Shown: positions 14,840-56,786 of the stretch, piece after piece
Layout of the letters: each line of letters begins with the position of its first letter
Numbering within the stretch: the stretch's first letter is position 1
Assembly: GCF_027923765.1 (NCBI RefSeq)
Contig: NZ_AP026709.1
Coordinates: forward strand, 1,235,501 to 1,299,500
Source of the DNA: Pseudodesulfovibrio nedwellii
GTDB taxonomy: Bacteria > Desulfobacterota > Desulfovibrionia > Desulfovibrionales > Desulfovibrionaceae
DNA length: 64,000 nt
Direction: 5' to 3'
Program-made: the position numbers and the translations under genes
Notes under the pieces: generated by a model
What the model was told of the DNA's origin: nothing
The model's database searches: none
What the model saw: only the letters and a program-made list of their open reading frames with translations

Positions 14840-14997
14840 GAAAATCCTCCGTTGCAGGTATGTAGCGCATTCACGCACGCAATTCAAAGAGAATACACGG
14901 CTGAATAATGCCCGGTTCTCCCAATTATCATGGAAAAAGACCGCATGCCTTGTCATAGTATGTTATGAAGAATTATTTAAAACCATGAGGGAACGCC

Positions 14998-15642
14998 ATG
15001 AAACACAGAATCATTATCGCCTGCATGTTCACCATGCTTGCCATACCAATAAATACGGCTCTGGCCCAAGGTGAACCGATCTTCACTCAAGAGGAGCTTA
15101 TAGGCTTGGTTGGCGAAGCCGTTGTTCAAGAAACAACAGAGGCCTCGGATGAAGTTCGCAAGGCAAAGGAAATCCTTGATGCTATGCGCAAAGAAGGCAC
15201 TGTTGCCGAACAGCAACAAGCTCAGACAAACGTTGAAAATGCTGAAAAAAAATTCACGAAAGCCCAAGGGAAACTCGATGAAGCCCGAGTGGACGCCTTC
15301 GCCAGAGAAAGCGGGAAATCCCCTGCCGACATTCAAGCCATGCGTGATTCCGGCATGGGCTGGGGGCGCATAGCCAAAGAAACGAACGTTCATCCCTCGA
15401 CCAGCGGCAAAGGGAAGGGGAAAACGAAAAACAAAGGAAAAGGGAAAGGGAAAAATTCTGGCAACTCGACATACGCTGATTCCGATGACGATATGGATGA
15501 AAACGAAACCACAACTTATGAGACTGACACGAACAACCAAAATGACGAGGAACTGGACGAAGCATCCCAAAATCAAACTCAGGGCAAAGACAAAAGCAAG
15601 GGAAAAAGCAATAAGTCCAAAGGAAAGGATAAAAAGAAATAA
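14998..15642 (+). CDS. Exported lysine/glycine-rich low-complexity protein
   Basis: 214 residues. A signal peptide (MKHRIIIACMFTMLAIPINTALAQ) predicts export. Residues 25-110 form a charged helical, coiled-coil-like segment (EVRKAKEILDAMRKEGTVAEQQQAQ). Then come two blocks of short Lys-Gly repeats (GKGKGKTKNKGKGKGK and GKDKSKGKSNKSKGKDKKK) separated by a very acidic stretch (DSDDDMDENE). No known family. The polycationic blocks suggest binding to polyanions at the cell surface (inference). It lies opposite to and between ruvA and ruvC, with a strong terminator behind. Confidence 0.75.
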   Translation: MKHRIIIACMFTMLAIPINTALAQGEPIFTQEELIGLVGEAVVQETTEASDEVRKAKEILDAMRKEGTVAEQQQAQTNVENAEKKFTKAQGKLDEARVDAFARESGKSPADIQAMRDSGMGWGRIAKETNVHPSTSGKGKGKTKNKGKGKGKNSGNSTYADSDDDMDENETTTYETDTNNQNDEELDEASQNQTQGKDKSKGKSNKSKGKDKKK

Positions 15643-15658
15643 GCCGCTTACACTTCAC

Positions 15659-15696
15659 AAGAAAGGCTCACCCCATTCGAGGTGAGCCTTTCTTGT
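15659..15696. terminator. Bidirectional terminator
   Basis: Perfect 14-bp stem (AAGAAAGGCTCACC and its complement) with an 8-base loop, and T-rich sequence on both sides, between the convergent lysine-rich gene and ruvC. Confidence 0.88.
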
Positions 15697-15713
15697 AATA
15701 AAAATCCAACCGA

Positions 15714-16220
15714 CTACAGACCAATCAGCTTACGCATACGCCGTTCGTTCAAATGACATATGGCAATAGCGAGGGCGTCGGACGCATCTTCGGGCCAATC
15801 AGGTTTTTTCTCGCCAAGCGTATTCGCGACCATAAAAGCGACCTGCGACTTGGGAGCATTACCCACTCCCACAAGATTCTTCTTGACCTTGGTAGGTTCA
15901 TATTCCCCCATCGGAATGCCGTTTGTGGCGCAGGCTGCCATGCAAGCACCCCTCGCCTGCCCCAGTTTCAGGGCGGACGAGGGGTTCTTGGATACAAACA
16001 CATTTTCGATGGCGGCCTCTGCCGGTGCAAACTTTTCGATAAGCTCTTGAAGCCTGTCAAAAATCACACCCAGCCGAACGGCCATATCTTTTTTGACCGG
16101 TGTACGAATAGTGCCGGTCTCCACCAGTTCGACCTGCCCGGATATTTCCCGGACGATACCGTAACCTGTAACCCGTGTTCCGGGGTCCAAGCCAAGGACG
16201 ATCAAACCTTTATCGCTCAT
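15714..16220 (-). CDS. ruvC: Crossover junction endodeoxyribonuclease RuvC
   Basis: 168-residue Holliday junction resolvase. The RNase H-like fold is clear: VLGLDPGTRVTGYGIV gives the first catalytic Asp, AAIENVFVSKNPSSALKLGQARG the Glu region, and WPEDASDALAIAICH the C-terminal acidic pair and His. Length is normal. It starts 2 bases after the yebC stop and forms an operon with yebC and rlmE. Confidence 0.96.
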   Translation of the reverse strand: MSDKGLIVLGLDPGTRVTGYGIVREISGQVELVETGTIRTPVKKDMAVRLGVIFDRLQELIEKFAPAEAAIENVFVSKNPSSALKLGQARGACMAACATNGIPMGEYEPTKVKKNLVGVGNAPKSQVAFMVANTLGEKKPDWPEDASDALAIAICHLNERRMRKLIGL

Positions 16221-19268: not shown

Positions 19269-19344
19269 GGGGACGTAACTCAGCTGGGAGAGTGCTACCT
19301 TCGCAAGGTAGAAGTCGGGAGTTCAAATCTCCTCGTCTCCACCA
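19269..19344 (+). tRNA. tRNA-Ala(CGC), integration target
   Basis: A full 76-base cloverleaf with encoded CCA. The acceptor stem GGGGACG pairs with CGTCTCC and contains the G3-U70 wobble that identifies alanine tRNAs. The anticodon stem CTACC/GGTAG holds the loop TTCGCAA, giving anticodon CGC. The T arm has GTTCAAATC. Its last 26 bases, plus the following A, are repeated exactly at 56938-56964, so this is the attachment site of the island; the tRNA stays intact. Confidence 0.95.
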
Positions 19345-19424: not shown

Positions 19425-19486
19425 CAATCAGCACTCACCGTTAGCAAATAGACAATCTCGATACTTTTGATGTTTTTTTCGATACA

Positions 19487-19526
19487 AAAAAAAGAACCGA
19501 TAACTCTAGCTACGGTTCTTTTTTAT
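19487..19526 (-). terminator. Terminator for the small membrane-protein gene
   Basis: AAGAACCG/CGGTTCTT stem with a 13-base loop; on the minus strand it is followed by a long T run, 4-40 bases past the stop at 19530. Confidence 0.75.
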
Positions 19527-19529
19527 AAG

Positions 19530-19712
19530 TTAACGCACGATCAACCTTCCATCGTCATCCCCTTCTTCTTCGATTTCATCCTCCAGTTCATCCACCTCGT
19601 CCTCATCATATTCCACAGAACGAGGTCTTCCATCCTCATCCAGAGCGTAAACGCCAGTTACAGCAAGGATGCCAACGGCTACTCCACCAATGAATGTCCA
19701 AAAGTCTCGCAT
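19530..19712 (-). CDS. Small membrane protein with acidic tail (copy 1)
   Basis: 60 residues: MRDFWTFIGGVAVGILAVTGVYAL is one membrane helix or signal anchor, followed by a very acidic, presumably soluble tail (DEDEVDELEDEIEEEGDDD). A GGAGAAA ribosome site precedes the ATG. A clear paralogue with the same helix and a different acidic tail lies at 34799-34972, which supports both as real genes. Function unknown. It is the last gene of the leftward cassette that starts at 23635. Confidence 0.7.
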   Translation of the reverse strand: MRDFWTFIGGVAVGILAVTGVYALDEDGRPRSVEYDEDEVDELEDEIEEEGDDDGRLIVR

Positions 19713-19726
19713 AGATTTCTCCTATT

Positions 19727-20062
19727 TTAGATTTCAAAAACAGCACCACACCGATTGCAGCGGCACTCGCAAATGACATGACGATCGACGTGTTCGCCAA
19801 CCTGATTGCCGACAGCAGCTCCGGTGAAAAATCCGGTAATTGCTCCGACCAGACTTCCACCAATGGCACCTACGACTGTTCCAACGACTGGAACAACGGA
19901 ACCAATTGCAGCACCAGCAGCGGCTCCTGCGGATGCGCCTGTGTATCCAGCGGCTGCACCGATGGTTCCACCGACAGCTGTTCCAACTTTTTGGCCGGTA
20001 TTAGCTAACACGACATGAGCCGAACTTTCACAATTCGGGCACACAAGAGTCTCTTCACTCAT
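19727..20062 (-). CDS. Glycine-zipper protein between two zinc-ribbon halves
   Basis: 111 residues. The N-terminus MSEETLVCPNCESSAHV and the C-terminus CECRCNRCGAVFEI each carry a Cys pair, together making a plausible split zinc ribbon. Between them is a long glycine/alanine zipper (GGTIGAAAGYTGASAGAAAGAAIGSVVPVVGTVVGAIGGSLVGAITGFFTGAAVG) typical of membrane-inserting or oligomerising hairpins. Sequence shown in parts only; the zipper spans about residues 27-87. Function unknown; its place next to the VWA gene suggests a partner role. Confidence 0.7.
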   Translation of the reverse strand: MSEETLVCPNCESSAHVVLANTGQKVGTAVGGTIGAAAGYTGASAGAAAGAAIGSVVPVVGTVVGAIGGSLVGAITGFFTGAAVGNQVGEHVDRHVICECRCNRCGAVFEI

Positions 20063-20085
20063 ATTTCCCTCGGGATTATTTGTAG

Positions 20086-21675
20086 TTATTTGAGCAGCGC
20101 ACTACGAAGCATTTCAAACATGGCTGGTGCCAGTTCAGGCAAATCATTGATAGTGCGGCTGTGGTTAGGAAGAAGTTTGGTGATGGCTTCAGACATGATG
20201 CCCAAGCCGTAAATCTCGACACCGAAACGTTTACCTTCTTCAATAGCATTGAAAGCCACGTTGAAGGAATCTGGATCTCCGTCGGTCAAGATCAAGACGA
20301 TCTTTCTGGACTCAGAAAGCGGTACAACTTGCTGCAAAGTCCACCAAAGCGATTCACCAAGAGGTGTACAGCCTGTAGCACTTATAGCGAAGTTAGAATG
20401 TACCCGCTCGCCATGTCCTAAAAGAGAACAGACTGTCGGTCCGTTATTGTTTTCGTTACCACCATCAACCGAAGTTCCTGCAGGAAAAGCAGTCACGCCA
20501 ACGTTAATGCCGTCGATAGCATTCAGAGCCGTGGCAACTGCATGGCAAACCTGCGTGGTCAGCTTGATGCGCCTACGCATTGAGCCTGAGCAATCCAGAA
20601 GGATGTGGACGGCAGTATTGATGCCCACCTGTTGCCCGGCCCTTTTGAAAACGCGAGCATCTGCTACCGACAACCGGTGTAGTTGTCTTGAGTCCAGGCG
20701 CCCATGACGACCAACCTTACTTCGCGTCAGCACGGACGATTGCAGCAAGCCTTGAAGCTGCGTCCGTAAGGCAGTCGATGCCTTCCTCGCTATGGCTGCG
20801 TCTTCTGATGGGATTGGTTTCGTGGCCTTGGTTCCGAGTTGGGCAACCCGCAGGACTTCACCAATATCCTTCGGCGTCTCCTTGCGTAGATTGTCCGCCA
20901 ACACTTTGCCGAGATCAGTAGGCAAATCGGTTTCATCTGCATCAATCAACTTCTGCAGTTGTTGGCCTGAATCGGTAAAAACAGCGTCTGAAGGGTGTCC
21001 ACCAGGGGCACCCTTTTTAGCCGCCTTTTCCGATCTCGACCCCCCATTTTCAGGGGGCAAAACAGCCGTTTGTTCCTTAAGGATAGAAACGACCTCTCTT
21101 GCGTACAAAATGCAATCTTGGGTCGAATCGCAATATGCATGAACCTTGTGAAGGACATGATTCAGCTGATCAATCAAACCTGGATAATGAGCCTCAACAA
21201 GTTTTCCGACTTCATCTCGTTGACTATTCAGCGAAGAAACGTCCCAAGCACGAACCGACAACAACAGCCAATTCAGGATTGCCATGGCTGGGTCAGAATT
21301 TTGCTCAGCGTCATTGCTGAACAGATGCTGAATCAACCAGTTGAAGTTTTGCCTACAACCTGGAAACAACCGGGCCAGCTTATGCTCAACCCGCCAATCC
21401 TCGAAGGCGTTCCAGACATGCATCTCAAGCGGTGTCAGATTCGCAAGACGCAACCAATCGAAGCGAGTTTCTCGGATATGGGCTGCTTCGTGATCGATAT
21501 AGCCTCTGGCCAAACCGATGAGTGTTTCATCGCAATCCAGCGGGAGTGCAGGCAGATGGATAGTGTTCCCATCCGTATACGCGCCCTTGCCACCAATGAT
21601 GACTTTTACACCGTATTTCCGTCCAAGAACGGAGGCCACCATGGGCAGTGATTTCATGAGAAGTTGGTTCTTCAT
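20086..21675 (-). CDS. CobT-like VWA-domain protein
   Basis: About 529 residues. The N-terminal part has an HExxH-like motif (IDHEAAHIRETRFD, about residue 65) as in CobT-type proteins. The C-terminal VWA domain has a full MIDAS: LLDCSGSMRRRI (DxSxS), the Thr in GCTPLGESLWW, and LILTDGDPDSF. In cobalt chelatase, CobT pairs with the AAA+ protein CobS; here it lies in a row with a CobS-like ATPase and DUF3150, an arrangement known from SXT/R391-type and other mobile elements, where the role is not settled. Start ATG 21675 (a GTG at 21687 is also possible); it lies 5 bases after the DUF3150 stop. Confidence 0.82.
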   Translation of the reverse strand: MKNQLLMKSLPMVASVLGRKYGVKVIIGGKGAYTDGNTIHLPALPLDCDETLIGLARGYIDHEAAHIRETRFDWLRLANLTPLEMHVWNAFEDWRVEHKLARLFPGCRQNFNWLIQHLFSNDAEQNSDPAMAILNWLLLSVRAWDVSSLNSQRDEVGKLVEAHYPGLIDQLNHVLHKVHAYCDSTQDCILYAREVVSILKEQTAVLPPENGGSRSEKAAKKGAPGGHPSDAVFTDSGQQLQKLIDADETDLPTDLGKVLADNLRKETPKDIGEVLRVAQLGTKATKPIPSEDAAIARKASTALRTQLQGLLQSSVLTRSKVGRHGRLDSRQLHRLSVADARVFKRAGQQVGINTAVHILLDCSGSMRRRIKLTTQVCHAVATALNAIDGINVGVTAFPAGTSVDGGNENNNGPTVCSLLGHGERVHSNFAISATGCTPLGESLWWTLQQVVPLSESRKIVLILTDGDPDSFNVAFNAIEEGKRFGVEIYGLGIMSEAITKLLPNHSRTINDLPELAPAMFEMLRSALLK

Positions 21676-21680
21676 GCTGA

Positions 21681-22649
21681 TCACCACAACCCATGGCTGT
21701 CGATCAAATGCTGCTGCACAGGCTCAGGGATATAATCGGCTTTAACCGCAGCCTTCCCTTCTTGTAAGGGAGGAATCGTATCCGCAACCAGTCCAGTCAG
21801 AATGTCGGTTGTATCCTGTCCGCTCAGAATCTTCTGACCATGGGCTACCATTGTCGCAGGATCACGAAGCATCGAAACGACGCCCTGAAGCATAACCAAT
21901 GCGCTTCCATGGATGTATCCACGTGAAGGCATCCGATTGAACGCCGCATCCAAGAGGTCCATGATTGGCACAACTCGCGGTTCGACAAAACTCAACCCCG
22001 ACAGCTTGGTGTGGATGGAGCGTAAGGGAGACAAGGCTTTGTGTGTCACCTTATCCTTACCTTCAAAGCATCGATGCCAGGTATCCGTTGCCGCCTTAGC
22101 CACTTCACCGAACAGCGTGCTACCCAATCCATTTACTTCGTCCTGCAACCCTTGGTGTACGGCATTATCTACAGGCGGCAGCAGTTTAAACAGTTGCCAT
22201 TTGAAGCCGATACGACTGCGCACGTAATCCGCACTGACTGTAGAACTGCCGATCAAATTTTCCCAACCTGGATGCTGAACGATCCAATCTCGTACTGCTT
22301 CGTCATATCGATTGAGGAACTGTTCTTTTGCAGCCAAGAAGTCATCACGAATCGCGGTCAGTTCCGACACGATGTCATCAGCACTGTCTTCAGGAATCGC
22401 CCAGCCACCAAGGAAGCGGACTCCAGTTCTGTCCAGCAAATTGACGGCACGAGCCTTGAGTGTACCGAAGATACGCAATTCCTGTGGGTTGCAAATCTTC
22501 TTACTGCCAAGCGAAGCAAGCTCTTCTGGAGGTAAATCAACACCACCGAAGTCAGCCGGTGTCAGTTTCTTCCGAGCCGTCCAGATGTTTACGTCCAGGT
22601 TCAGGGCCATCAAATTGTCCAGCACAGTGATATCCGTATGGGTATCCAT
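21681..22649 (-). CDS. DUF3150 domain protein
   Basis: 322 residues, helical and soluble. It begins MDTHTDITVLDNLMALNLDVNIWTARKKL, with the 'LN.D..IW.ARKKL..EDF' start typical of DUF3150. The central block YDEAVRDWIVQHPGWENLIG and the region up to LFKLLPP also fit. DUF3150 genes are nearly always next to a CobS/MoxR-like ATPase and a VWA protein in mobile elements, as here, suggesting a three-part complex. Function of the complex is unknown. It starts 2 bases after the ATPase stop. Confidence 0.8.
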   Translation of the reverse strand: MDTHTDITVLDNLMALNLDVNIWTARKKLTPADFGGVDLPPEELASLGSKKICNPQELRIFGTLKARAVNLLDRTGVRFLGGWAIPEDSADDIVSELTAIRDDFLAAKEQFLNRYDEAVRDWIVQHPGWENLIGSSTVSADYVRSRIGFKWQLFKLLPPVDNAVHQGLQDEVNGLGSTLFGEVAKAATDTWHRCFEGKDKVTHKALSPLRSIHTKLSGLSFVEPRVVPIMDLLDAAFNRMPSRGYIHGSALVMLQGVVSMLRDPATMVAHGQKILSGQDTTDILTGLVADTIPPLQEGKAAVKADYIPEPVQQHLIDSHGLW

Positions 22650-22651
22650 AA

Positions 22652-23635
22652 TTACTCCTTGGTTTCTTGTGGGAATAAACGTTGCGCCAGTTCGTGCAGA
22701 ACGGTCCGGGTTTCGGGACTGGCACGATAGCCAAGAGCACGATCAAGCGCGTAGGTCACAGGTTGGATGCCTTGTCTAGCCAATGGTTGAAAGCGAACAG
22801 TCAGATCAGCCCAACGGATCAGGGTACGAGTCGAGAACGTGACTTCGATGGTCTCGCGATAATTGCCGTCGGCTTCTCCCATAAAGAGCTTACGGACCTC
22901 GTTGGCGTAGTCCACCATCTTGGTCCGCACGTCTTTGGGAAGATTTCCGGCCTTACGATGCAACAACTCCCGTTCCGCCTTCGGGCTCGGGTAGCCGATC
23001 TCGCAGAGCCAAAAGCGATCCATGAAAGCCAAGTTCTGACGAAGCGTCCCCTGGTAGAGACCGGTCTCATCAGTCCCGCCATTGGTGTTGGCCGTGGCTG
23101 CAAATCGAAACAACGGATGCGGCTTAATGACTTCGCTACCATTCTCAGGGATGCACAGCGGATCGCCATCCAGGATACCGTTCAAACCCGCAGCGGTTGC
23201 CGGATCAAGCAGATCGATCTCATTGAGCAGGAAAAGCCCGCCGAATTTCATCGCCAGCGCAAGCGGTCCGTACTGGAAGCTCATATTGGAATCCTCTACA
23301 GTCAGATGTCCGACCATATCCGGGAATTCCAACCGTCCATGACCAGTAATGTCAAAGACAGGATAGTTGAGCTTAGCCGCAAGCTGCTTGATAAGGCTTG
23401 TTTTACCCGAACCGGCAGGCCCGAAGACGTACAACGGATCAGACGAATCCATAAACCAGACCACGGCGTCACGACTGGAGTCATGAAACAGGTATGCAGG
23501 ATTAATGTCAGGGGTGAATGAAGACGGTGATTCAAAGCCATGCACTTTACGCTTGGACTTCCTTCCGCTGAAGATTTCACCTGCGTCATGTTCGATAGTT
23601 TGCAAATCTCGCAGTTCCTTGATGATTTCACTCAT
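22652..23635 (-). CDS. CobS/MoxR-like AAA+ ATPase
   Basis: 327 residues. Walker A is FGPAGSGKTSLIKQ, Walker B is GLFLLNEIDLLDP, sensor 1 is FRFAATANTNG, and an arginine-finger region is STRTLIRWADL. This is a single-ring AAA+ chaperone-like ATPase of the CobS/MoxR group, expected to remodel its VWA partner or a protein bound by it. The ATG at 23635 has an AAAGGAG ribosome site; an upstream in-frame start (23668) would read through the leader hairpin. It heads the cassette ATPase-DUF3150-VWA-zipper-small membrane protein. Confidence 0.88.
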   Translation of the reverse strand: MSEIIKELRDLQTIEHDAGEIFSGRKSKRKVHGFESPSSFTPDINPAYLFHDSSRDAVVWFMDSSDPLYVFGPAGSGKTSLIKQLAAKLNYPVFDITGHGRLEFPDMVGHLTVEDSNMSFQYGPLALAMKFGGLFLLNEIDLLDPATAAGLNGILDGDPLCIPENGSEVIKPHPLFRFAATANTNGGTDETGLYQGTLRQNLAFMDRFWLCEIGYPSPKAERELLHRKAGNLPKDVRTKMVDYANEVRKLFMGEADGNYRETIEVTFSTRTLIRWADLTVRFQPLARQGIQPVTYALDRALGYRASPETRTVLHELAQRLFPQETKE

Positions 23636-23656: not shown

Positions 23657-23688
23657 AGAAGCCCACACCTTGTAAGGCGTGGGCTTCT
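23657..23688 (-). terminator. Leader hairpin before the AAA+ cassette
   Basis: Perfect 10-bp stem AGAAGCCCAC/GTGGGCTTCT with an inner CCT/AGG pair; on the minus strand a T-rich tract and then the ribosome site of the ATPase follow at once. It can end transcription from the gene at 23713 or attenuate the cassette. Confidence 0.75.
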
Positions 23689-23712: not shown

Positions 23713-24129
23713 CTACATGGCTGCGATAGATACGATAGTACGGATAACCTCTTCCTGATTTGTTTCCCATGCAATATTTTCCAAAGGCTGAGGGGAATCC
23801 TTAAGGCATGCATCGTATTTTTCCCGATACCCCTCATCCGCTACTTCGTTTACGGCATTAAGGATTTCATAACCTGTCATCTCGTATCCAGACCAATTGC
23901 GGTATGAAGAAACCATCTGCTCAGACACCTCTTCGAGGCTCCCCTGTTTAAGCCTGTCGACGACTTCGTCATACAATGCTTTCATGTGAGTCAAGATGAA
24001 TCGCCCTCGTTCCGTTTTGAGAAATTCACTCTCTTCATCGTTTACGTATTTTTCTGGAGTCATCGCAATGGTCCGGGTACGCTTTCCAAATCGGAATTGA
24101 AAATCAGAAAACCTGTTTACAGGTGCCAT
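23713..24129 (-). CDS. Island hypothetical protein, paralogue pair member B
   Basis: 138 residues, soluble, mostly helical. It shares with its neighbour (24157-24651) the block TIAMTPEKYVNDEESEFL..ERGRFIL and MKALYDE, so the two are tandem duplicates that have diverged. No known family. The C-terminus ends in VIRTIVSIAAM, matching LRIAVSLMYM in the paralogue. The frame is clean and a ribosome site (AAAGGAG) precedes the ATG. Confidence 0.7.
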   Translation of the reverse strand: MAPVNRFSDFQFRFGKRTRTIAMTPEKYVNDEESEFLKTERGRFILTHMKALYDEVVDRLKQGSLEEVSEQMVSSYRNWSGYEMTGYEILNAVNEVADEGYREKYDACLKDSPQPLENIAWETNQEEVIRTIVSIAAM

Positions 24130-24156
24130 ATGTAGTTCTCCTTTCGTAATAACTTA

Positions 24157-24651
24157 TTAGTGGGAACGGCTCATGTACATGAGTGAAACCGCTATTCGTA
24201 ATGCATCAGATGTGTCGAATGTGATGGGATGTCTCCCGACCAACTCAACAAGACTGTCAATATTTTCTTCGTATGCTTCACGGAACTCCGAATCTCCGAC
24301 CTCATAGAGAGCCGCAAGTATTTCGCGACCATATATCTCTGTGCCCGGAGAATTATCGTAATCAGATATAATTTCACTACATACGCTTTCCTGTTGACCT
24401 TCTTTGAATCTGGTTTTGAGTTCTTCAAACAATGCTTTCATTTGAACAAGGATGTATCTCCCCCGATCGGAATCAAGGAAACAACTCTCGTAATCGTTCA
24501 CGAATTTTTCCGGTGACATGGCAACCTCGCGGACATGGTCACCGAATGGTATTTTAAAAATAAGTTCTTCATCTTCCGGGGAATTACCAATGGCATTACC
24601 AACGTTCAAAGATGCATTAGTAAAATTGCTTATAATCTTAAGCGCATTCAT
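24157..24651 (-). CDS. Island hypothetical protein, paralogue pair member A
   Basis: 164 residues. The common core with the next gene is EVAMSPEKFVNDYESCFLDSDRGRYILVQMKALFEE and EIYGREILAALYEVGDSEFREAYEEN (quoted in parts). It has an extra N-terminal segment (MNALKIISNFTNASLNVGNAIGN) missing in its paralogue. No family recognised. AAAGGAG precedes the ATG. Confidence 0.7.
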   Translation of the reverse strand: MNALKIISNFTNASLNVGNAIGNSPEDEELIFKIPFGDHVREVAMSPEKFVNDYESCFLDSDRGRYILVQMKALFEELKTRFKEGQQESVCSEIISDYDNSPGTEIYGREILAALYEVGDSEFREAYEENIDSLVELVGRHPITFDTSDALRIAVSLMYMSRSH

Positions 24652-24963: not shown

Positions 24964-26805
24964 ATGTCAAATATATTGCCTGACGATGTCGATTTTTTTC
25001 AAACAGAAGGCGAAGAGCGATTCTATAATTTTCTCAAACACGTCGCTAAGCCAGAAGGCAGATTCCTAAGTTGGTATCTTCCCGACCTCAAAGGCAGAGA
25101 GCCTGATTTCATCATGTTCAGCAAGGATGTGGGGCTAATAATATTTGAAATTAAAGACTGGGCTCTCAACCAGATTATCGAAGCTAACCCACAATATTTC
25201 GTTCTCAATATTGCAGGTAAACCTGAAAAACGAAAAAATCCTCTTTTCCAAGCCAAGGAATATTTTTCTTACTTAATCGAAAAGCTAACAGACGACGGAA
25301 GACTCCTCTCTCGTGAACCTGAACACTACGGGAAACCGAGAATCCCGATAAGTTACGGTGCCGTTTTCCCTAACATCAACAAATTCGAATTCCTTGAGAA
25401 GGGGCTCGGAGACGTTATCCCTGCGGATAAGACACTGTTTTGGGACGACATGCATTCTTCTTCCGATATTTGTACAGATCCGTCCGGCAGGAAATTCTCG
25501 GAAATGCTCAAGCAGATGTTTCCCCCCGTCTTTCTTTTCCAACCAACAGGCAAGGACTGTGAAATTCTTCGAAATGTGATCTTCCCTGTTATTCGTATGA
25601 AACTTCCAAACAGAACAGCAGAAAATGATTACGAAACAGACAAGACGCGCCTTCAGCAGTTGGACTACAATCAAGAAGCAATTTCCAGAAAAATGGACGA
25701 AGGGCACAGGATCGTCACAGGCCCTTCCGGCAGCGGAAAAACGCTCATACTAGTACATCGAGCAGCTCAACTTCTGAAATACAACCCAAAGGTCAAACGA
25801 ATTCTTTTCGTTTGCTACAATCTAACCTTGGCAAACTACATACGCAGACTCTTAGCCGACAAGAAGCTTCCTTTGGGGAAATCAGGAATAGATGTATTCC
25901 CCTTTTACCAGCTTTGCTCTCGTATAGTTCATGAAACAGTGGATAATGATGGTGAAGGAAAGGATTATTATGAACTCATCCTACAAGAAGCGATGGAGCG
26001 ATGCCAAGAATGCGATCTTCAATATGATGCCATTTTGATAGATGAAGGTCAGGACTTTTCCGATGACATGCTAAAGGTCGTCATGGGACTGTTGTCACCA
26101 ACTTCAAAAAGCCTGACGATTGCCATGGACAAAGGACAACGAATTTATCAACGTAGGATGTCTTGGAAAGAAATTGGCATTGATGCAAGCGGACGAACTC
26201 ACCATTTGGACTGGGTATACAGAAACACAGAAGAAATAGCTGGTTGGGCTGCCCGATTCATGGGAGAAGCTGTCAATCAAAATCACAATAGCACTCAGCA
26301 CGAACTACTCCCCAATCTCTTGGGACATCATGGACCAGCACCTTCAATGCCTCTTTGTGGCGACTTTAATGAAACATCTTCAACCATCATCCAGAAAGTG
26401 AAAGAATGGTTGGGAAAAGGATATCCGGCATCTGAAATCGCAGTGCTTTACACAACGAGCAAACCGACAACCATTCCAGATTTACATATTCCCACCCATA
26501 TCAAAGATGCACTGGAAGAAAACGGGATTCTCTGCCAGTGGATTTCAGAGGACGCAAGAAGCAAAGAGGCCTACGACGTAACTACGGACAAAGTATCCAT
26601 TTCAACCATCCACAGCGTCAAAGGTCTCGATTATGCTTGTGTTCTATTAGTAGGTGTTGATTTCATTGATCTTGATCGCATAGGTAAAGAGCAGGCACGG
26701 AATCTAATTTATGTCGCCATGACTCGAGCACGGACCGAACTAGTAATCCCTTGGGTTCAAGAAACGAAGCTGACGTCCCGGCTCCAAAAGGCTCTACAAA
26801 TTTAG
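24964..26805 (+). CDS. NERD-domain UvrD/RecB-type DNA helicase
   Basis: 613 residues. The N-terminal NERD nuclease-related domain (residues 1-200) shows GREPDFIMF and LIIFEIKDW, the D...ExK core of a PD-(D/E)XK fold. It is followed by a superfamily 1 helicase: Walker A GPSGSGKTLILVHRAA, motif II ILIDEGQDFSDDM, motif V STIHSVKGLDYACVLL and motif VI NLIYVAMTRARTELV. Such fusions act in DNA repair or in defence; the role here is inferred. AAAGGAACC precedes the ATG. Strongly AT-rich compared with the host genes. A terminator follows, so it is its own unit. Confidence 0.88.
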   Translation: MSNILPDDVDFFQTEGEERFYNFLKHVAKPEGRFLSWYLPDLKGREPDFIMFSKDVGLIIFEIKDWALNQIIEANPQYFVLNIAGKPEKRKNPLFQAKEYFSYLIEKLTDDGRLLSREPEHYGKPRIPISYGAVFPNINKFEFLEKGLGDVIPADKTLFWDDMHSSSDICTDPSGRKFSEMLKQMFPPVFLFQPTGKDCEILRNVIFPVIRMKLPNRTAENDYETDKTRLQQLDYNQEAISRKMDEGHRIVTGPSGSGKTLILVHRAAQLLKYNPKVKRILFVCYNLTLANYIRRLLADKKLPLGKSGIDVFPFYQLCSRIVHETVDNDGEGKDYYELILQEAMERCQECDLQYDAILIDEGQDFSDDMLKVVMGLLSPTSKSLTIAMDKGQRIYQRRMSWKEIGIDASGRTHHLDWVYRNTEEIAGWAARFMGEAVNQNHNSTQHELLPNLLGHHGPAPSMPLCGDFNETSSTIIQKVKEWLGKGYPASEIAVLYTTSKPTTIPDLHIPTHIKDALEENGILCQWISEDARSKEAYDVTTDKVSISTIHSVKGLDYACVLLVGVDFIDLDRIGKEQARNLIYVAMTRARTELVIPWVQETKLTSRLQKALQI

Positions 26806-26848
26806 ACGTTTTTCCCTCACTTACTCCAGTGTGTTGCCGAAAAGTTAT

Positions 26849-26886
26849 GGTGTGACTTCTTCTAATTGAGGTCACACCCTTTCTTT
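26849..26886 (+). terminator. Terminator after the NERD-helicase gene
   Basis: 8-bp stem GGTGTGAC/GTCACACC with a 14-base loop followed by a T-rich run. Confidence 0.8.
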
Positions 26887-26944
26887 ATCCCATTGCGCGG
26901 TTCAATTATTTTGTCTGCAACTTTCCTTCTCTTGGAAAAGTACG

Positions 26945-27646
26945 GTGTTATCTCTTTTCCTCATGCACATTCTTAAGTTTAAAGAGATCGCCCCCTTATG
27001 GCCCAATTGGGCTTGGCTAGCATTTGGATTTATCCCCATCTATTTTTGGAAGCATCATTCCTTCTCTTCCTGTATGCGTACACCACTTTCGCGAAACTTA
27101 AGAGCCTTAGTTGTCATAACAGTTTTGAGTTTTACACTCATCCTTCTTTTCTGCAGGCATTCTACAGAAAAGCACCGAAGTCACGCTATACAAGAGTCTC
27201 CAATATCACACCCACTTTCCCAAAGAGATCGAGAATTCGTGATCAGGTGGCTTCAATCCATGAGTAACAAATTTGAAGCTACCAACATGACATTCTTCAG
27301 TCTCCCGATTTACCGCAATGAAGCCAATGGGAGTCTTTTGGGCTTTATCGCATTTAAAAAACAAAAAATCATTTTCGCTTCAGGTGTTAACCAAGTTCAA
27401 GAAGCAACATATGGAATCTTCAGCCACTTCATCTACGCCAATGACGAAATTTACCTAGAAGACTGTCTCACGACAACAGGGCGCTACGACGACCAAACTG
27501 ATACATTTAAATTCCAGTCAGGCAGTAAGAATTATACTCTGTGCAATATAGATGCTGGTGCGCAAGGGAAGTATAGGCGGATAGCAACATGTTTATGCGA
27601 ATTGAAAAATGGGGAATTTAGGGTGAACCAAATTCTTTCCAATTAA
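26945..27646 (+). CDS. Hypothetical protein with two N-terminal membrane helices
   Basis: 233 residues. Two membrane segments at the N-terminus (APLWPNWAWLAFGFIPIYFW and ALVVITVLSFTLILLF) are followed by a soluble domain of about 165 residues that I do not recognise (DREFVIRWLQSMSNKFEATNM..., ending GEFRVNQILSN). The start is unsure because the ATGs at 26964 and 26945 region lack a strong ribosome site. It sits between the NERD-helicase and the WYL regulator, all on the plus strand, and may belong to the same defence-like cluster. Confidence 0.55.
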   Translation: MLSLFLMHILKFKEIAPLWPNWAWLAFGFIPIYFWKHHSFSSCMRTPLSRNLRALVVITVLSFTLILLFCRHSTEKHRSHAIQESPISHPLSQRDREFVIRWLQSMSNKFEATNMTFFSLPIYRNEANGSLLGFIAFKKQKIIFASGVNQVQEATYGIFSHFIYANDEIYLEDCLTTTGRYDDQTDTFKFQSGSKNYTLCNIDAGAQGKYRRIATCLCELKNGEFRVNQILSN

Positions 27647-27827
27647 CCTAGGACTTATCCTCAACATTCACAGTCCATCAAATACGATTTGCGGAAAAGA
27701 CTAATGAAACAACTGTTAGAAAAATGCGACCAACTCTATTGATTTTAATATGTTTTCATGGTCAAAAAAACAACTCACTCGACATCTATTCATATTTGGA
27801 TTTGTCAATCTGACACAGGAGCTTAAC

Positions 27828-28760
27828 GTGGTTAATAAAAACTCATTGGATTCACATGGAACAAAGCTCCTGCGCCTATTCCAAAAACTTATGCTTGAAG
27901 GAAGACGGCACTATCAAAGCGACCTTGCAGAATATCTTGATTGCTCACCGCAAACAGTTATGCGTCTTATCGGAGAGATAGAAGGGACTGTAGGCACTGG
28001 TCTTGAAATTGGGACGGAAAATCGCCGCCGATACTACCAACTCAAATCTCTCGCATCTAGACGTACACTGGGGTTAGAATTCGAGGAACTTCGTTACCTC
28101 GCCATCTGCCATGACTTGGCATCGCCTCATCTGCCTCAACAAATTTCAGCAAGAGTCGAAAAAACGATATTTGAGCTTTCAACCCTCATGGCAGATCCTG
28201 ATTACGCTCGCAGAAATGACGCACAACAGCAGCAGATAGGATTCAAGTCCAAAGGATACATAGATTACACCGGGCATTTCAAACATATCGAAAGCCTCAT
28301 AGACGCTGCTCAAAAACGCAACATCTGCCTTGTTGACTACAAAGCCAACTCCCAAAAAGAAGCAAAAAACTATTTTTACGCTCCTGGTCGCATCATCACC
28401 ATGAATGGCGCTCTTTACGTGCGCGGCCATAAGGTATCAAAAGGGCTAGCAGAAAAGGAACGAGCAACGACTTTCGCCATTCACAGAATCCAAGATGTCA
28501 CACAGACAGATAAAACTTTCAATTTTGATGCGACAATCGACGATGAGGGCTCATTCGGCATGAGTTGGCACGAACCCAAACGCTTCCGCATCGCCTTTGA
28601 CGAGAAGACTGCAGACTACGTACGAGAACGGACATGGAGCGAAGACCAGAAAATTGAAGACCAAGAAGACGGTGGACTTATTTTGGAATTAACGACGGTC
28701 AGTGAACGAGAACTCATGGCCTGGGTGTGGAGTTTTGGAAAATTGGCGACGCTATTATAA
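27828..28760 (+). CDS. WYL-domain transcriptional regulator
   Basis: 310 residues from the GTG at 27828, chosen because CAGGAG lies 6 bases upstream; the longer frame to 27750 has no ribosome site. The N-terminus has a winged helix (LLRLFQKLMLEGRRHYQSDLAEYL and SPQTVMRLIGEIE). The C-terminus has a WYL domain: NFYAPGRIITMNGALYVRGH and a WCX-like end (MAWVWSFGKLATLL). WYL proteins are common repressors of phage-defence operons, sensing ligand or nucleic acid. It stops 13 bases before the dynamin gene and so is probably the regulator of that operon. Confidence 0.85.
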   Translation: MVNKNSLDSHGTKLLRLFQKLMLEGRRHYQSDLAEYLDCSPQTVMRLIGEIEGTVGTGLEIGTENRRRYYQLKSLASRRTLGLEFEELRYLAICHDLASPHLPQQISARVEKTIFELSTLMADPDYARRNDAQQQQIGFKSKGYIDYTGHFKHIESLIDAAQKRNICLVDYKANSQKEAKNYFYAPGRIITMNGALYVRGHKVSKGLAEKERATTFAIHRIQDVTQTDKTFNFDATIDDEGSFGMSWHEPKRFRIAFDEKTADYVRERTWSEDQKIEDQEDGGLILELTTVSERELMAWVWSFGKLATLL

Positions 28761-28773
28761 ATAGAGGTAACAT

Positions 28774-31194
28774 ATGAACCAACGAGTAGAAGATATGCAT
28801 GAGCAAAACATCGAATTAATGAGGAAAGAGGCGATTCGCCTCATTGAATGGGAGATTGAGTTACTTGAGGAGCTTAGAGATAAAAAAATTGTCACTGAGG
28901 CTCAACAAGAAAATGCGAAAGCAACATTCACTCTTCCGAAAATAATCAAATACATCGAAGTGCTGCAAGGAGAACAGCACAAGCTAAAAAATCTCGAAAT
29001 AACTTTGGCGATTGTCGGCACAATGAAAGCTGGCAAGTCGACGACGATTAATGCGATTGTCGGTTCTGAGATTCTCCCCAGTCGGAATAGGCCTATGACA
29101 GCCTTGCCGACTCTCATCAAACATAAGCCAGGACAAACCATCCCTGTCCTCCGGTTCCCTAACAAAAAACCGGCACATGATTTTTGCTGTAGTATCGCAG
29201 CGAAAGACAATCGTGAAGAACTTGAAATCAAAGACCCTGATCTTGCAAAAACAATGGATGATATTTGTAACGGTTGGAAAATCAAGGAAGAGTACACAGG
29301 GGCAGAGGAAATTTTTCAATTCCTTCGTCAGCTAAATGACCTCGTCAGAGTCTCAAATATTACCGGTATCCCCTTTCCCTATGATGAGTATAACAAAATC
29401 CAAGAATTGCCGGAGATTGAAGTCCAATTTGAAACACTAAGAGATTCAAACAATCTTGGTGAATTCATACTTCTTGATACTCCAGGTCCGAATGAGGCTG
29501 GCATGAAAGCACTCTCTAGGATGATGGAGGATCAACTTCAAAAGGCTTCTGCCGTTTTGACTGTTATGGACTTTACTCAGTTGAAGTCAGAAGCTGATGA
29601 CTCCGTCCGAAACATTCTGAAAAGTATTTCTGCTTACACGAAAGGGCGTTTATTCGCGTTAGTAAACAAGTATGACCAAAAAGATCGAAACAGCATCGAT
29701 TTAGATTCCATGAAGGAATTAATCTCAGAATCACTCATGGACGGGGAAATAGATAAGGATAAAATTTATCCTGTCTCTTCCAAATATGGCTACCTGGCCA
29801 ATTGTGCACTCAGTGCGGTCAATGAGGCGCAAAAAACGACGACTGCACTCGCGCTAACTGAAACTCCATGGCATGTGGATTTTGCTGACCTGGCTTTTAG
29901 AAGATGGAAGAAAGAAGATCTGGCCGACCTGGAAAAAGTTAGATCGGCTGCCATCGACTTATGGGAAGACTCTCTTTTTGCCGCCCCTCTAGAAGAAGTC
30001 ATCCAAAAGTCGCATGCCGATGCTGCCTCGATTGCCTTAAATTCCGCAGCGAGTAAGCTTTCAAAAATAATAGGAGAGTTTGAAAAACACTTGGCCGTAC
30101 GTGGTCGCTGCATTGTTGCAGATGTGAAGACAATTCAGACTATGATTGATGCAATGCAAAATGACATTGATCAAGTGGATCAACTTAAGGCCGCTGCTGA
30201 GGAGTCCAAAAAAACATCTATCTCTCAATTGACCAACGAATGCACTTCCTTGTACAAGGAAGGGGAGTGCAAAACAGTTGAGGTCATTCGCAATTATTTT
30301 CAAACAGGAAAAGCCGAAGAAGAAAAAAGGAGCAAAGAACGTAAGCAGGAACAACAAAAGGCAAAAACGGGTTTTGCTAGTTCTATTGAAAAGTTAAGAA
30401 GCAAACTTAGTGGAAACAAAGAAAGACATATTTCAGGTCCCAATTTTGATCCCAAAGTACCTAAAATTCGTTTTGAAAAAGACGAGAAGCATGAAGCAGT
30501 GAAATTTGTTGGAGATGTCTCTGAGGCATTGGAAGGTGTCTTGAACAAAACGATGGAAGCGGTAAACAAAACTTTAGACGAAGTCATCCGTGACTTCGAC
30601 GAGAATATGACCAAAGGAATTGCGGAGCCTTCCAATATGTTGCTGAGCGATTTACAGGAAAGGATGAATAAGGAGGGCGTAAAAATATCATTAAGTTTGC
30701 CCAATCTTGACAGGCTTAACTTGCCATTCAGCGGAAAGCAGCTTGTCGCGAAAGTTGAATCCAAAACGGAAAAAGATACAAAACCAGTACCTCGAGAGTC
30801 TACCGGAGGCTCGGTTAAAAGATTTTTTGGAAGTCTTTTGGGTCAAGGCGATTGGGGCTACGACGATGTAACTTATGATAAAGATTTCTACATTGTAGAC
30901 ATAAAAAGACTAGAGAAACAAGCTGCCGAAGAAATTAAAAAGGCATTTTCCAACCTAACGTCCACTGGGATTAAGAAAACAATCGAAAAACCGCTCGCCA
31001 AGAGCTTGAATGACTTTTTTATCGAGCTTTCCGAGATTGTAGAAAACATTCGAGGCGACCTGCTTCAAGGCCTTGAAGACAGTCAAGAGAAGAGTAGTGA
31101 AAAACAACGACTGCTCAAAGAGATCCAACAGTTGCAGGAAGTCACTCCGGAATGCAAGGAAGACACAGAAAAGCTGAGCGAAAGGCTTCAATAA
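28774..31194 (+). CDS. CrfC/RdcA-like dynamin-family GTPase
   Basis: 806 residues. The GTPase domain matches E. coli CrfC (YjdA, RdcA): LAIVGTMKAGKSTTINAIVG (P-loop, 79-98), RNRPMTALPTLI (G2), LLDTPGPNEAG (G3) and VNKYDQKDRNS (G4). Long helical, dynamin-like stalk regions follow, with a very basic lysine-rich patch around 505-550 and a C-terminal amphipathic region that could touch membrane. E. coli CrfC binds the sliding clamp for nucleoid cohesion, and as RdcA works with RdcB on a diguanylate cyclase. The next gene encodes an RdcB-like protein, joined by a TAATG overlap. Probably membrane-remodelling (inference). Confidence 0.88.
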   Translation: MNQRVEDMHEQNIELMRKEAIRLIEWEIELLEELRDKKIVTEAQQENAKATFTLPKIIKYIEVLQGEQHKLKNLEITLAIVGTMKAGKSTTINAIVGSEILPSRNRPMTALPTLIKHKPGQTIPVLRFPNKKPAHDFCCSIAAKDNREELEIKDPDLAKTMDDICNGWKIKEEYTGAEEIFQFLRQLNDLVRVSNITGIPFPYDEYNKIQELPEIEVQFETLRDSNNLGEFILLDTPGPNEAGMKALSRMMEDQLQKASAVLTVMDFTQLKSEADDSVRNILKSISAYTKGRLFALVNKYDQKDRNSIDLDSMKELISESLMDGEIDKDKIYPVSSKYGYLANCALSAVNEAQKTTTALALTETPWHVDFADLAFRRWKKEDLADLEKVRSAAIDLWEDSLFAAPLEEVIQKSHADAASIALNSAASKLSKIIGEFEKHLAVRGRCIVADVKTIQTMIDAMQNDIDQVDQLKAAAEESKKTSISQLTNECTSLYKEGECKTVEVIRNYFQTGKAEEEKRSKERKQEQQKAKTGFASSIEKLRSKLSGNKERHISGPNFDPKVPKIRFEKDEKHEAVKFVGDVSEALEGVLNKTMEAVNKTLDEVIRDFDENMTKGIAEPSNMLLSDLQERMNKEGVKISLSLPNLDRLNLPFSGKQLVAKVESKTEKDTKPVPRESTGGSVKRFFGSLLGQGDWGYDDVTYDKDFYIVDIKRLEKQAAEEIKKAFSNLTSTGIKKTIEKPLAKSLNDFFIELSEIVENIRGDLLQGLEDSQEKSSEKQRLLKEIQQLQEVTPECKEDTEKLSERLQ

Positions 31195-32108
31195 TGAGCT
31201 GTCTCACCCCGATATTGAAAGAGGCGGGCTTGGCGGACACGATAGACGTGATGCCTGGCCTGCACCAGAAAATCGTTCTTGATGTGGTTAACAGCATTAA
31301 CGTTGCGCAAGATGTTGAACGGGTCCAGAGCAACCGTAGTAGGATACGTCATCGGCTTATGGATTCGATTACAGGAGCTGGGGGCAGACGGCAAAACGCG
31401 ATTAATGAAAATCACACCGAAGCCATACGCGGACTTTTTGACTTTGCTGTTGAACTGACGAAGTCAATTGAGCTCACCAACTCTGTGACGACTCAAATAA
31501 ACAAACAACTTGTTGAGGTTCACAAAAACATCAAAGACCTAGCCCTAGGCGTCTGTGAAATTAATGACAGGCTTGAACAGTTTATAGGCTGGAGCGAGCA
31601 ACGAATTGGTCAACTTGAAGAAAGACTTAAAGAGACTTCCATTGAACATTCTGCTCACACTCATCTTGAACGGGCTTTCGCCAAATGGGCTGCCGGACGT
31701 TTAAATCAGTATTCACCGATAACTCAACTTTATCTGGTTATTGACGATTTGTACTGGGGAGATTTTGGCGAATTGTGCAAAAGATACCCGGACTCACAGG
31801 CCTGCAAGAACAACATAGGGCATGCTCAGGACAAGTTGCTAATCCAACTCCATACAATTATGGAAACCGAAAGCCAAATCGAACTACCAAAGTGGGTTAC
31901 AGGTAGTCACAACATCCCTCCAAAAGAGCAACAGTCGCTTAGTTACATGGGAGACTGGGCAACTAAACACCTGCATTTTCCTCGAACTGCGACAAATATT
32001 TCTGGGTCGCCGACGGTAGGTGTTCCCCTTCAATTTGATTGCGCATTCGCTGTGACTAGGATGTGGAAGCAATCCATGGAGATACGCTTGAATGACAAAA
32101 TCAACTAA
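31194..32108 (+). CDS. RdcB (YjcZ)-like partner of the dynamin GTPase
   Basis: 304 residues from the ATG at 31194, which overlaps the dynamin stop (TAATG). It is a helical, partly coiled-coil protein (NSVTTQINKQLVEVHKNIKDLALGVCEINDRLEQFIGWSEQRIG, quoted loosely) with a conserved C-terminal block HLERAFAKWAAGRLNQYSPITQLYLVIDDLYWGDFG, as in the diguanylate cyclase regulator RdcB family. In E. coli RdcA and RdcB jointly activate DgcE; no GGDEF gene lies in this window. The patatin gene starts inside its last 17 bases. Confidence 0.72.
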   Translation: MSCLTPILKEAGLADTIDVMPGLHQKIVLDVVNSINVAQDVERVQSNRSRIRHRLMDSITGAGGRRQNAINENHTEAIRGLFDFAVELTKSIELTNSVTTQINKQLVEVHKNIKDLALGVCEINDRLEQFIGWSEQRIGQLEERLKETSIEHSAHTHLERAFAKWAAGRLNQYSPITQLYLVIDDLYWGDFGELCKRYPDSQACKNNIGHAQDKLLIQLHTIMETESQIELPKWVTGSHNIPPKEQQSLSYMGDWATKHLHFPRTATNISGSPTVGVPLQFDCAFAVTRMWKQSMEIRLNDKIN

Positions 32109-33195
32109 ATTTGGTCTAGTTCTCTCCGGCGGAGGTGCAAAAGGCGCTTACCAAGCAGGAGTTATAAAGGCTCTCGCCGAGTTAAACATCACTATTGATA
32201 TTGTATCAGGAGCGAGCATCGGAGCTTTGAACGGAGCCATGGTTGCCTGTGCTCCAGATTTAGAGGAAGCAGCCGTTCGTTTAAAAGAGCTCTGGAAAAA
32301 GATAGGAGAAGACTCGCCGCTAACTCTTAACAAGTCTGCGCTTTTGAAGCTCTTACTTCCACTCACTTCGATAGTTGGAAATACAAGCCCATTAGGAGCT
32401 GTGTCCAATTTCTTAGCTTTCTTTCCTAGCGCAGATCGCGAAGTCGACTTGCTCAGCAACTCTCCCATTAAGAACATTCTAGAACAAAACATTAGTGTCG
32501 AATTGCTCAAAAAGGGACTTCCTCTTTATGTTTCTGTTTATCCCAGTTCTGGTAATCTCCAGACTCTTATTGAAGCACTGGCTGCATCGATGAGTGTTGT
32601 GGATACGGACAAATCGCATTTTTATCATGTGCAAAGCCTACCACATGAAGAGCAGATAAAAGCACTTTTAGCGTCATCTGCTCTCCCTGGCCTCCTTCCT
32701 GCACAAAAGATCAATGATCAACAGTACCATGATGGCGGAATCGGCGGCTGGAGGTCCACACAAGGAAATACGCCGATTACTCCTCTAATTGAAGCCGGGT
32801 GTACCCACGCCATAGTAACCCACCTTCGAGACGGCTCTATGTGGCGACGGCAAGATTTCCCAGAATTAAATGTGATAGAAATACGCCCCCGAAGCAGCAT
32901 CCAACGCGGAAGTGTCATCCCAGATGTGCTGGGATTTGATCCAAGCAAAGTTTCTTCGTGGATTGAACAAGGATATGAAGACACTCATTTAAGCTTGGCC
33001 CCAATGATAAAGGGAACAAATGCGATTAACTCTCTGACTGCTTCTCAACAGGCTCTTCTTGACTCTCACCAAGCTACTCAGGAACCTTCTGCAGCCAAAA
33101 ATAGTGCAATGGACAAATTTAAACGCCGTGTTGGGGCGTCTAAAGCTAAAGGCCTTCATCCCTTGCAAGGGAGTACAAAGACTCTTGAAGAGTAG
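32092..33195 (+). CDS. Patatin-like phospholipase
   Basis: 367 residues. It starts with the patatin oxyanion loop LVLSGGGAKGAYQAGVIKAL, then the nucleophile elbow GASIGALNGA (GxSxG) and the catalytic Asp motif YHDGGIGGW. No signal peptide or membrane helix, so a cytoplasmic lipase that attacks the inner leaflet is likely. The C-terminal 40 residues are basic and low in structure (KFKRRVGASKAKG). The ATG lies 17 bases inside the RdcB-like gene, so expression is coupled. Patatin effectors kill the cell in several defence systems (CapV in CBASS), which suggests an effector role here (inference). Confidence 0.9.
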   Translation: MTKSTKFGLVLSGGGAKGAYQAGVIKALAELNITIDIVSGASIGALNGAMVACAPDLEEAAVRLKELWKKIGEDSPLTLNKSALLKLLLPLTSIVGNTSPLGAVSNFLAFFPSADREVDLLSNSPIKNILEQNISVELLKKGLPLYVSVYPSSGNLQTLIEALAASMSVVDTDKSHFYHVQSLPHEEQIKALLASSALPGLLPAQKINDQQYHDGGIGGWRSTQGNTPITPLIEAGCTHAIVTHLRDGSMWRRQDFPELNVIEIRPRSSIQRGSVIPDVLGFDPSKVSSWIEQGYEDTHLSLAPMIKGTNAINSLTASQQALLDSHQATQEPSAAKNSAMDKFKRRVGASKAKGLHPLQGSTKTLEE

Positions 33196-33403: not shown

Positions 33404-34054
33404 TTACCCCATACGGACACTATGGTCCATTCTCTGGAGAGATTCTTGGTCGACTTCAAGCCCAACAGGCGGCTTCACTCCTTGAAAAGCAATAGGGCCA
33501 CGCACAAGAGTGTTCTCAGGCAATCGCGAAAGACACATTGGCCGCTTGCAAACCACTACATCTGGCCACATATCGCCTTTGCAAGTCAAAACGAGACGCC
33601 CATCATTTATGTCGGCTTCAACCTTGTGACCATAAGCCATACGAGCCGCTTCACACCACTCTTTCAAAGTCAAAGACTCTCCTTCATCGACCCTACGCAG
33701 CAACTCCGGCACCTGTATAAATGTATATCCACTAAAATGCGCCTTTAATTTTGGAACAGGCTCTATTTTAAACGCACCTTTTCTATTTTCGTCATAGCTG
33801 TAATGGACACATTCTACGGCCTGTACCCCATTGGAAATCTTGCACAGACAACCTCTTTCATCAACGAATAGTGTCCCGGTACAAATGTTTTTCGGAATCT
33901 CGTAAAGAGGTTGACTCTCCTCAGAATACCGGCCCACATATAGCTCTAGGTCTACATATATTTGCCGAGTCGAATATTTCCAATGCACTACTACGTCTTC
34001 ACTCTTGGCCAATTTCGCCATAAAGGCTTCATCGGCTGAAGTCGGATTACACAT
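33404..34054 (-). CDS. Island hypothetical protein, second paralogue pair, member B
   Basis: 216 residues, soluble. Its C-terminal half resembles that of the upstream gene: SLTLKEWCEAARMAYGHKVEADINDGRLVLTCKG against SLTREQWVKLFSEVFTGYKVSLDRDHRIVIDSSKG. The N-terminal strand pattern (HWKYSTRQIYVDLELYVG) also matches. No known family. An AAAGGAG site precedes the ATG, which lies 8 bases inside the upstream gene. Confidence 0.7.
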   Translation of the reverse strand: MCNPTSADEAFMAKLAKSEDVVVHWKYSTRQIYVDLELYVGRYSEESQPLYEIPKNICTGTLFVDERGCLCKISNGVQAVECVHYSYDENRKGAFKIEPVPKLKAHFSGYTFIQVPELLRRVDEGESLTLKEWCEAARMAYGHKVEADINDGRLVLTCKGDMWPDVVVCKRPMCLSRLPENTLVRGPIAFQGVKPPVGLEVDQESLQRMDHSVRMG

Positions 34055-45083: not shown

Positions 45084-45148
45084 AATAGGCCCAAAGATAA
45101 TGTGAGTTTTTGGCGAAATCGATTATTACAAATCAGGAGGATTTCGCC

Positions 45149-46278: not shown

Positions 46279-46311
46279 TGCCCAGCCCTAAAACGGGGAG
46301 ACCCTCAGCCT

Positions 46312-56784: not shown

Positions 56785-56786
56785 TC

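Follow-up and report, generated by a model that had tools for sequence, protein, structure and literature searches.

In the integrative and conjugative element (ICE) SXT, the annealing protein Bet and the exonuclease Exo drive the formation of hybrid ICEs (PMC2786100). On their own they are ca. 50-fold weaker than Red/RecET in Escherichia coli, in an assay in which lambda Bet and Exo without Gam were grouped with RecET plus Gam as the stronger sets (PMC3118119). SXT/R391 elements have no gam, and an unrelated inhibitor, still to be found, may be encoded (Garriss et al., PMC2786100). Hybrid formation by Bet and Exo, their weakness when alone and the lack of gam leave room for a missing partner. 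The maps of SXT and IncC already display, beside bet and exo, a trio of genes coding for an AAA+ ATPase, a DUF3150 protein and a protein with a von Willebrand factor A (VWA) domain; bet and exo of SXT/R391 and IncC, which drive mosaic evolution and the spread of resistance, have so far been studied without it. Among better-known AAA+ and VWA partners, NorQ hexamers twist and stretch NorD via its VWA part (PMC13036017), and plasmid or viral cobS and cobT have been interpreted as cobalamin genes (PMC12023590, PMC8651126). Here, we describe a five-gene cassette that contains the trio in a 64,000-nucleotide stretch (the window) of the genome of Pseudodesulfovibrio nedwellii (NZ_AP026709.1, positions 1,235,501 to 1,299,500). 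In mobile elements, the cassette is probably the accessory half, driven by ATP, of a recombination module of the annealing type (Red/RecET/ERF-like). The five open reading frames (ORFs) follow one another on the minus strand (19530-23635), in the order AAA, DUF3150, VWA, ZIP and TM (our labels for two small proteins), with intergenic gaps of 2-23 bases that suggest a single transcript. The genes of the module found in the window are:

22652-23635, minus strand, AAA+ ATPase of the MoxR/CbbQ/NorQ type, 327 aa (PF07728, 6.6e-17; PF08406 CbbQ_C, 1.5e-14)
21681-22649, minus strand, DUF3150 protein, 322 aa (PF11348, 1.8e-99, full length)
20086-21675, minus strand, VWA protein, 529 aa (PF06213 CobT, 1.8e-8; PF11775, 1.2e-7)
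19727-20062, minus strand, ZIP, 111 aa, a glycine zipper framed by zinc-ribbon halves (PF13488, 7.8e-7)
19530-19712, minus strand, TM, 60 aa, a single membrane helix (FIGGVAVGILAVTGVYA) followed by an acidic tail (ORF; the family is found 3' of the VWA gene in many genomes)
23657-23688, minus strand, terminator-like hairpin of 14 pairs with a T run, directly before the AAA gene (hairpin scan)
36366-37046, minus strand, ERF single-strand annealing protein, the only ERF of the genome (PF04404, 2.4e-34; PHROG Erf-like; genome scan)
35156-36376, minus strand, Cas4/RecE-like PD-(D/E)xK nuclease, partner of ERF (provisional start codon; overlaps the end of the ERF gene)
34799-34972, minus strand, second TM gene, 57 aa, 47% identical to TM, after the nuclease gene

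The strongest pointer to the function of the trio is its partnership with an annealing protein and an exonuclease. We drew gene maps for more than 100 loci, which were seeded with DUF3150, and the counts are therefore conditional on it. In 76 distinct loci the upstream sequence extended to 6.5 kb or more, and 63 of these had genes for both an annealing protein and an exonuclease on the same strand within 8 kb upstream. The common plan is (ssb), annealing protein, exonuclease, AAA, (WGR-like), DUF3150, VWA, (radC, primase), where the genes in brackets are variable. Desulfovibrionales use ERF as the annealing protein, Methylococcaceae and SXT use Bet, and Pseudomonas uses RecT, while a fourth, unnamed type of protein takes this place in Desulfuromonadales, a position that suggests that it is an annealing protein as well. 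On the DUF3150 tree we count five changes of annealing-protein type, although its deep branches are long and unsure, and the nuclease family varies too, while AAA, DUF3150 and VWA remain constant. The protein of Desulfuromonadales (318 aa, PHROG 10048) is always located between ssb and the nuclease gene (L033, 14097-15053; also L034, L123-L127, L133, L141 and L148) and may represent a new family of annealing proteins.

The same association was apparent when 199 genomes of the order Desulfovibrionales were scanned with profiles for DUF3150, ERF, ZIP and TM, the last three independently of DUF3150. ERF was present in 63 genomes and DUF3150 in 60, with both in 54 (hypergeometric 4e-32, phylogeny ignored, as in all our co-occurrence probabilities), and for 77 of the 103 ERF genes a DUF3150 gene followed on that strand at a distance of 1.4-14 kb. 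Mobile elements follow suit. There are 1145 plasmid records with DUF3150, 977 of them typed as conjugative, and single-strand annealing protein (SSAP) and exonuclease genes adjoin DUF3150 and VWA in the SXT-type pR997, an IncC plasmid, a Pseudomonas aeruginosa megaplasmid and pALVIN02, mostly together with ssb and AAA and often with WGR, radC or primase genes. An initial annotation, made from the sequence of the window alone, had likened the trio to SXT, rightly as pR997 illustrates, and had missed the partnership.

In the window, the element carries the SSAP gene (ERF) with the exonuclease gene beside it. The sequence of this nuclease falls below Pfam and PHROG thresholds, but members of its family match PDDEXK and RecE-like exonuclease models, and motifs of the PD-(D/E)xK kind can be recognized by eye (GHWQEDG...AHLDF...ELKSN...QLYGQ), followed by a C-terminal Cys cluster. 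Between this pair and the trio there are plus-strand cargo genes (24964-33195) and a few genes without family. The two halves look like one module opened by cargo, with a TM gene after each, a reading suggested by the layout in relatives.

The products of the cassette were examined one by one. The ATPase has the Walker A motif GPAGSGKT and the CbbQ/NorQ C-terminal domain (PF08406), and shares an operon with a VWA partner (PF11775) with an intact metal ion-dependent adhesion site (MIDAS). In the VWA protein, the MIDAS is C-terminal (D361xS363xS365, T437, D465), and the N-terminal part contains a zincin-like HEAAH...E motif (H62, E63, H66, E92). Among 92 distinct relatives, all 92 keep HExxH followed by ED some 26 residues later (H, E, H, E, D), which would supply a downstream acidic third ligand, and the DxSxS, T and D of the MIDAS are invariant or nearly so. 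The predicted model (predicted local distance difference test [pLDDT] 86.7) places HExxH and the downstream E on neighboring helices (50-69 and 82-103). Residues 281-529 have their best structural match in the MIDAS of Rea1 (Z 23.1, 2.1 A, 199 residues, 18% identity), and the C-terminal half aligns with NorQ-bound NorD (Z 17.9-18.9). The protein is possibly a metallopeptidase; such activity is suggested by motif conservation, as the fold search barely probed the N-terminal part. The DUF3150 model is also well predicted (pLDDT 89.5), but against the PDB it gave no Foldseek match at E of 0.001 or less, and VIA-align returned generic helical matches (Z of 7.6 or less); a few phage proteins of BFVD matched, one of them named DUF3150. 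Plasmid-derived rows were left out of the structure-prediction alignments. The nearest named relatives of DUF3150 are from Pseudodesulfovibrio, Desulfobacterium and Desulfovibrio.

The initial annotation had grouped the two small genes with the trio, and this view has gained support; its suggestion that all of them may make up one membrane-linked AAA+ machine is conjectural. The glycine zipper and split zinc ribbon of ZIP were correctly recognized, the ribbon halves being a CPNC pair near the N terminus and a CRCNRC pair near the C terminus (C8, C11...C102, C105), and in the family the four Cys and the zipper columns are conserved. TM is indeed one hydrophobic helix with an acidic tail. ZIP was detected in 40 of the 199 genomes, or 24 once weak matches of the composition type were removed, and TM in 35. 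A DUF3150 gene is 0.6-4.0 kb upstream of 33 of the 37 ZIP genes, on the same strand, and 1.8-4.3 kb upstream of 53 of the 64 TM genes, whereas by chance well below 1% would be expected in those positions; a fortuitous presence of the small genes in the island can thus be rejected. TM directly adjoins ZIP in 21 cases, and some genera contain TM but lack ZIP. Two gammaproteobacterial modules (L073 and L152) code, immediately 5' of the Bet gene, for a ZIP-like protein that shares the Cys pattern of ZIP. ZIP profile matches within long repetitive proteins (e.g., L035, 1127-2635) were ignored as composition matches. L035 also has a decayed duplicate, a second and truncated VWA gene followed by ZIP (14986-15931), on the strand opposite to the module. 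The five genes and their extent were as the initial annotation had them (ORFs and Pfam matches agree), although its inventory lacked a pair of paralogues (23713-24651), ERF and its nuclease, the second TM and the HExxH of the VWA protein. A second hairpin can be seen by eye just after TM (ca. 19485-19525), outside the list of the hairpin scan.

Our best reading of these sequences is that the five-gene set would be an ATP-driven remodeller serving an annealing recombinase and, in this organism, tethered to the membrane. The AAA+ protein would form a MoxR-type ring and, like NorQ on NorD, act on its VWA partner by way of the MIDAS face, and DUF3150 could join as an adaptor or substrate-binding subunit. 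Such a machine would remodel or strip an annealing protein, a nuclease or a host protein at DNA ends, and the target might be cut by the zincin-like N-terminal domain. ZIP and TM would tether the machine to the inner membrane in Desulfovibrio-type bacteria. Several observations weigh against this interpretation. The upstream pair is absent from 13 of the 76 loci, one being L032, this genome's other copy of the cassette, where the upstream side has been cut by insertion sequence (IS) elements, and in the window ERF and the nuclease are 11-14 kb upstream of the trio, on the same strand, with ca. 10 kb of cargo between. ZIP and TM are largely confined to Desulfovibrionales and close kin, and most gamma- and betaproteobacterial modules do without them. 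The fold search with the whole VWA protein was filled by VWA-domain matches, and the N-terminal part remained unmatched to a zincin fold. Finally, gene linkage is evidence of partnership and says nothing of mechanism.

The cobalamin question can be answered with more certainty. Already the initial annotation had considered cobalt chelation unlikely, and the genome bears this out. No match to CobN (PF02514) was found in the whole genome (one 3.76-Mb contig, 99.99% complete), in which control profiles did match, and the cassette proteins are far from the NCBIfam equivalog cut-offs (85.5 bits versus 558.55 for CobS, and 32.3 versus 759.05 for CobT). The VWA protein is homologous to CobT over nearly its full length (profile E 6.7e-35), but in the solved CobT (one CobT sequence) the aligned stretch has no HExxH although the rest aligns. 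Because CobN is absent, the cut-offs are missed by such a distance and the neighbors are recombination genes, it is very unlikely that the cassette is a cobaltochelatase. The distant homology to CobS and CobT is what would favor a CobST-type pair feeding cobalamin synthesis, as is often written for plasmids and phages, and given this evidence, together with the intact HExxH, we grant that explanation next to no probability. The conserved motif also speaks against regarding the "peptidase" label of cyanophage cobT as mistaken (PMC8651126). Three phage "CobT" proteins carry HEVGH, HEVAH and HEVGH, each then followed by ED, and their "CobT/CobS" pairs (L157, L158 and L159) are near DNA polymerase, clamp or SSB genes, so that a role in replication or recombination rather than in cobalamin synthesis is possible. 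Tentatively, the genes discussed in PMC12023590 and PMC8651126 may be of the same wider kind; the extension past modules with DUF3150 is based on three phage sequences.

Another explanation, which we consider improbable but the most serious of the alternatives, is that the trio antagonizes RecBCD/AddAB for annealing systems without gam, by removing, unfolding or cutting the host nuclease that degrades ends and so freeing double-strand ends for the exonuclease and annealing protein of the element. It would suit the lack of gam in SXT/R391 and the unrelated inhibitor proposed there (PMC2786100), as well as the weakness of SXT Bet and Exo (PMC3118119); the trio directly follows exo in SXT, and a zincin with an AAA+ ATPase would be adequate for the removal of a host protein. 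On the other hand, no host target is known, and the island has AddAB-like genes of its own (37349-43220). Besides, lambda Bet and Exo are among the stronger sets even without Gam (PMC3118119), so the missing Gam is not necessarily enough to account for the weakness of SXT. Less plausible still is a chaperone for metal or cofactor insertion, in the sense of NorQD or CbbQO, that would mature the partner nuclease or another metalloenzyme of the element. The nearest solved VWA relatives, CobT and NorD, are both metal-insertion factors (for the NorQD mechanism, see PMC13036017), and many of the partner nucleases are Cas4-like with a Cys cluster, but the trio is found equally beside nucleases of the lambda-Exo/YqaJ type, with Mg as their sole cofactor need, and the invariance of HExxH would be left unexplained. 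We give marginally less credit to an anti-phage or conflict system of the MoxR-VWA ternary type carried as cargo. The island does contain defense-like cargo (a NERD-UvrD helicase, a type IIG restriction-modification gene and a patatin), and MoxR-VWA modules occur in conflict systems (PMC7159879). However, searches of the five proteins with PADLOC, PHROGs and NCBIfam matched no system, no PADLOC model fits them, and in conjugative plasmids and ICEs the linkage is to recombination genes and not to effectors.

The integrative element that contains the cassette is 37.6 kb long, with att repeats at the 3' end of a tRNA gene and an integrase, and the cassette occupies its tRNA-proximal end. Other features of the element are as follows:

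19269-19344, plus strand, tRNA-Ala (CGC), the last 26 bases of which are the att repeat 19319-19344 (ARAGORN)
23713-24129, minus strand, 138-aa protein without family, paralogue of the gene at 24157-24651 (ORF)
24157-24651, minus strand, 164-aa protein without family, paralogue of the gene at 23713-24129 (ORF)
24964-33195, plus strand, cargo: NERD-UvrD helicase, WYL regulator, dynamin-like GTPase, YjcZ-like protein and patatin phospholipase
55525-56793, minus strand, tyrosine integrase of the element (PF00589, 3.4e-27)
56938-56963, no strand, second att repeat, an exact 26-base copy of the tRNA-Ala 3' end (chance expectation 0.00)

The 138- and 164-aa paralogues had no relatives in any other locus examined, which places them outside the conserved system. 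Within the cargo, the NERD-UvrD helicase (24964-26805, plus strand) has a strong match to a PADLOC candidate (C3a187, 1e-79), and the dynamin-like GTPase, YjcZ-like and patatin genes, consecutive behind the WYL regulator (28774-33195, plus strand), resemble a separate cargo unit. A further pair of small genes without family is found at 33404-34709 (minus strand). Divergent from ERF are genes for an AddB-like PD-(D/E)xK protein and an AddA-like UvrD helicase-nuclease (37349-43220, plus strand), and an MmeI-type IIG restriction-modification gene (44391-48490, plus strand) is split by an IS3-like transposase pair at 45110-46278. The genome has a second copy of the five genes in the same order at ca. 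3.085 Mb (92/85/76/72/70% identity), also near an integrase, related to that of the window, and in other genomes the set recurs with its gene order preserved.

Each of the protein families was already known. As far as the literature searched shows, what is new is the counted partnership with several types of annealing protein, the linkage of ZIP and TM and the invariant zincin motif; no paper in that literature mentions DUF3150. The initial annotation, which had seen the link of the small genes, the likeness to SXT and the improbability of cobalt chelation, was thus right in part but had not considered the annealing partners or the zincin motif. If the trio is a dedicated partner, the weakness of SXT Bet and Exo alone and the missing Gam become testable. 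A broader proposition, which we put forward as a conjecture with the odds somewhat against it, is that a further, unrecognized part belongs to recombination of the annealing type in ICEs, conjugative plasmids and perhaps many phages, namely an ATP-powered MoxR-VWA machine with an active zinc-peptidase domain. In part of the bacteria it would work from the membrane via ZIP and TM, and its action would be to cut or strip the annealing protein, the nuclease or an enzyme of the host that processes ends. Many "cobS/cobT" genes of mobile elements would then be members of this machine rather than vitamin B12 genes, which, if true, would correct the common cobalamin reading of plasmid and phage genes (PMC8651126, PMC12023590).

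Compared with described systems, the phage "CobS/CobT" pairs (cyanophages, Rhizobium phages and SSU5) share with the cassette an AAA+ protein and an HExxH-VWA protein but have no DUF3150 annotated between them, and are usually interpreted as cobalamin genes (PMC8651126). CobS/CobT proper differ in that CobT has lost the HExxH segment, while the genome of the cassette has no CobN. NorQ has the same pair of Pfam domains (AAA_5 and CbbQ_C) and NorD aligns with the VWA half, in an alignment that does not extend to the HExxH domain; NorQD acts on nitric oxide reductase and has no DUF3150 partner. Rea1/Midasin resembles the VWA protein through a MIDAS linked to an AAA+ part, with which it detaches partners from a particle (ribosome precursors), but it is one very large eukaryotic polypeptide that has neither an HExxH domain nor DUF3150. 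The ssb-bet-exo regions of SXT/R391 and IncC (L069 and L072) are different in their details. SXT has Bet and a lambda-type Exo, its AAA and DUF3150 genes are separated by a WGR-like gene, and radC/primase follow; in the IncC record the AAA gene is further upstream, before ssb. No ZIP or TM was seen in these regions, whereas the window has both, with ERF and a Cas4-like nuclease and no WGR gene. Yet they have in common with the window the genes of the trio on the same strand, beside an annealing protein and an exonuclease.

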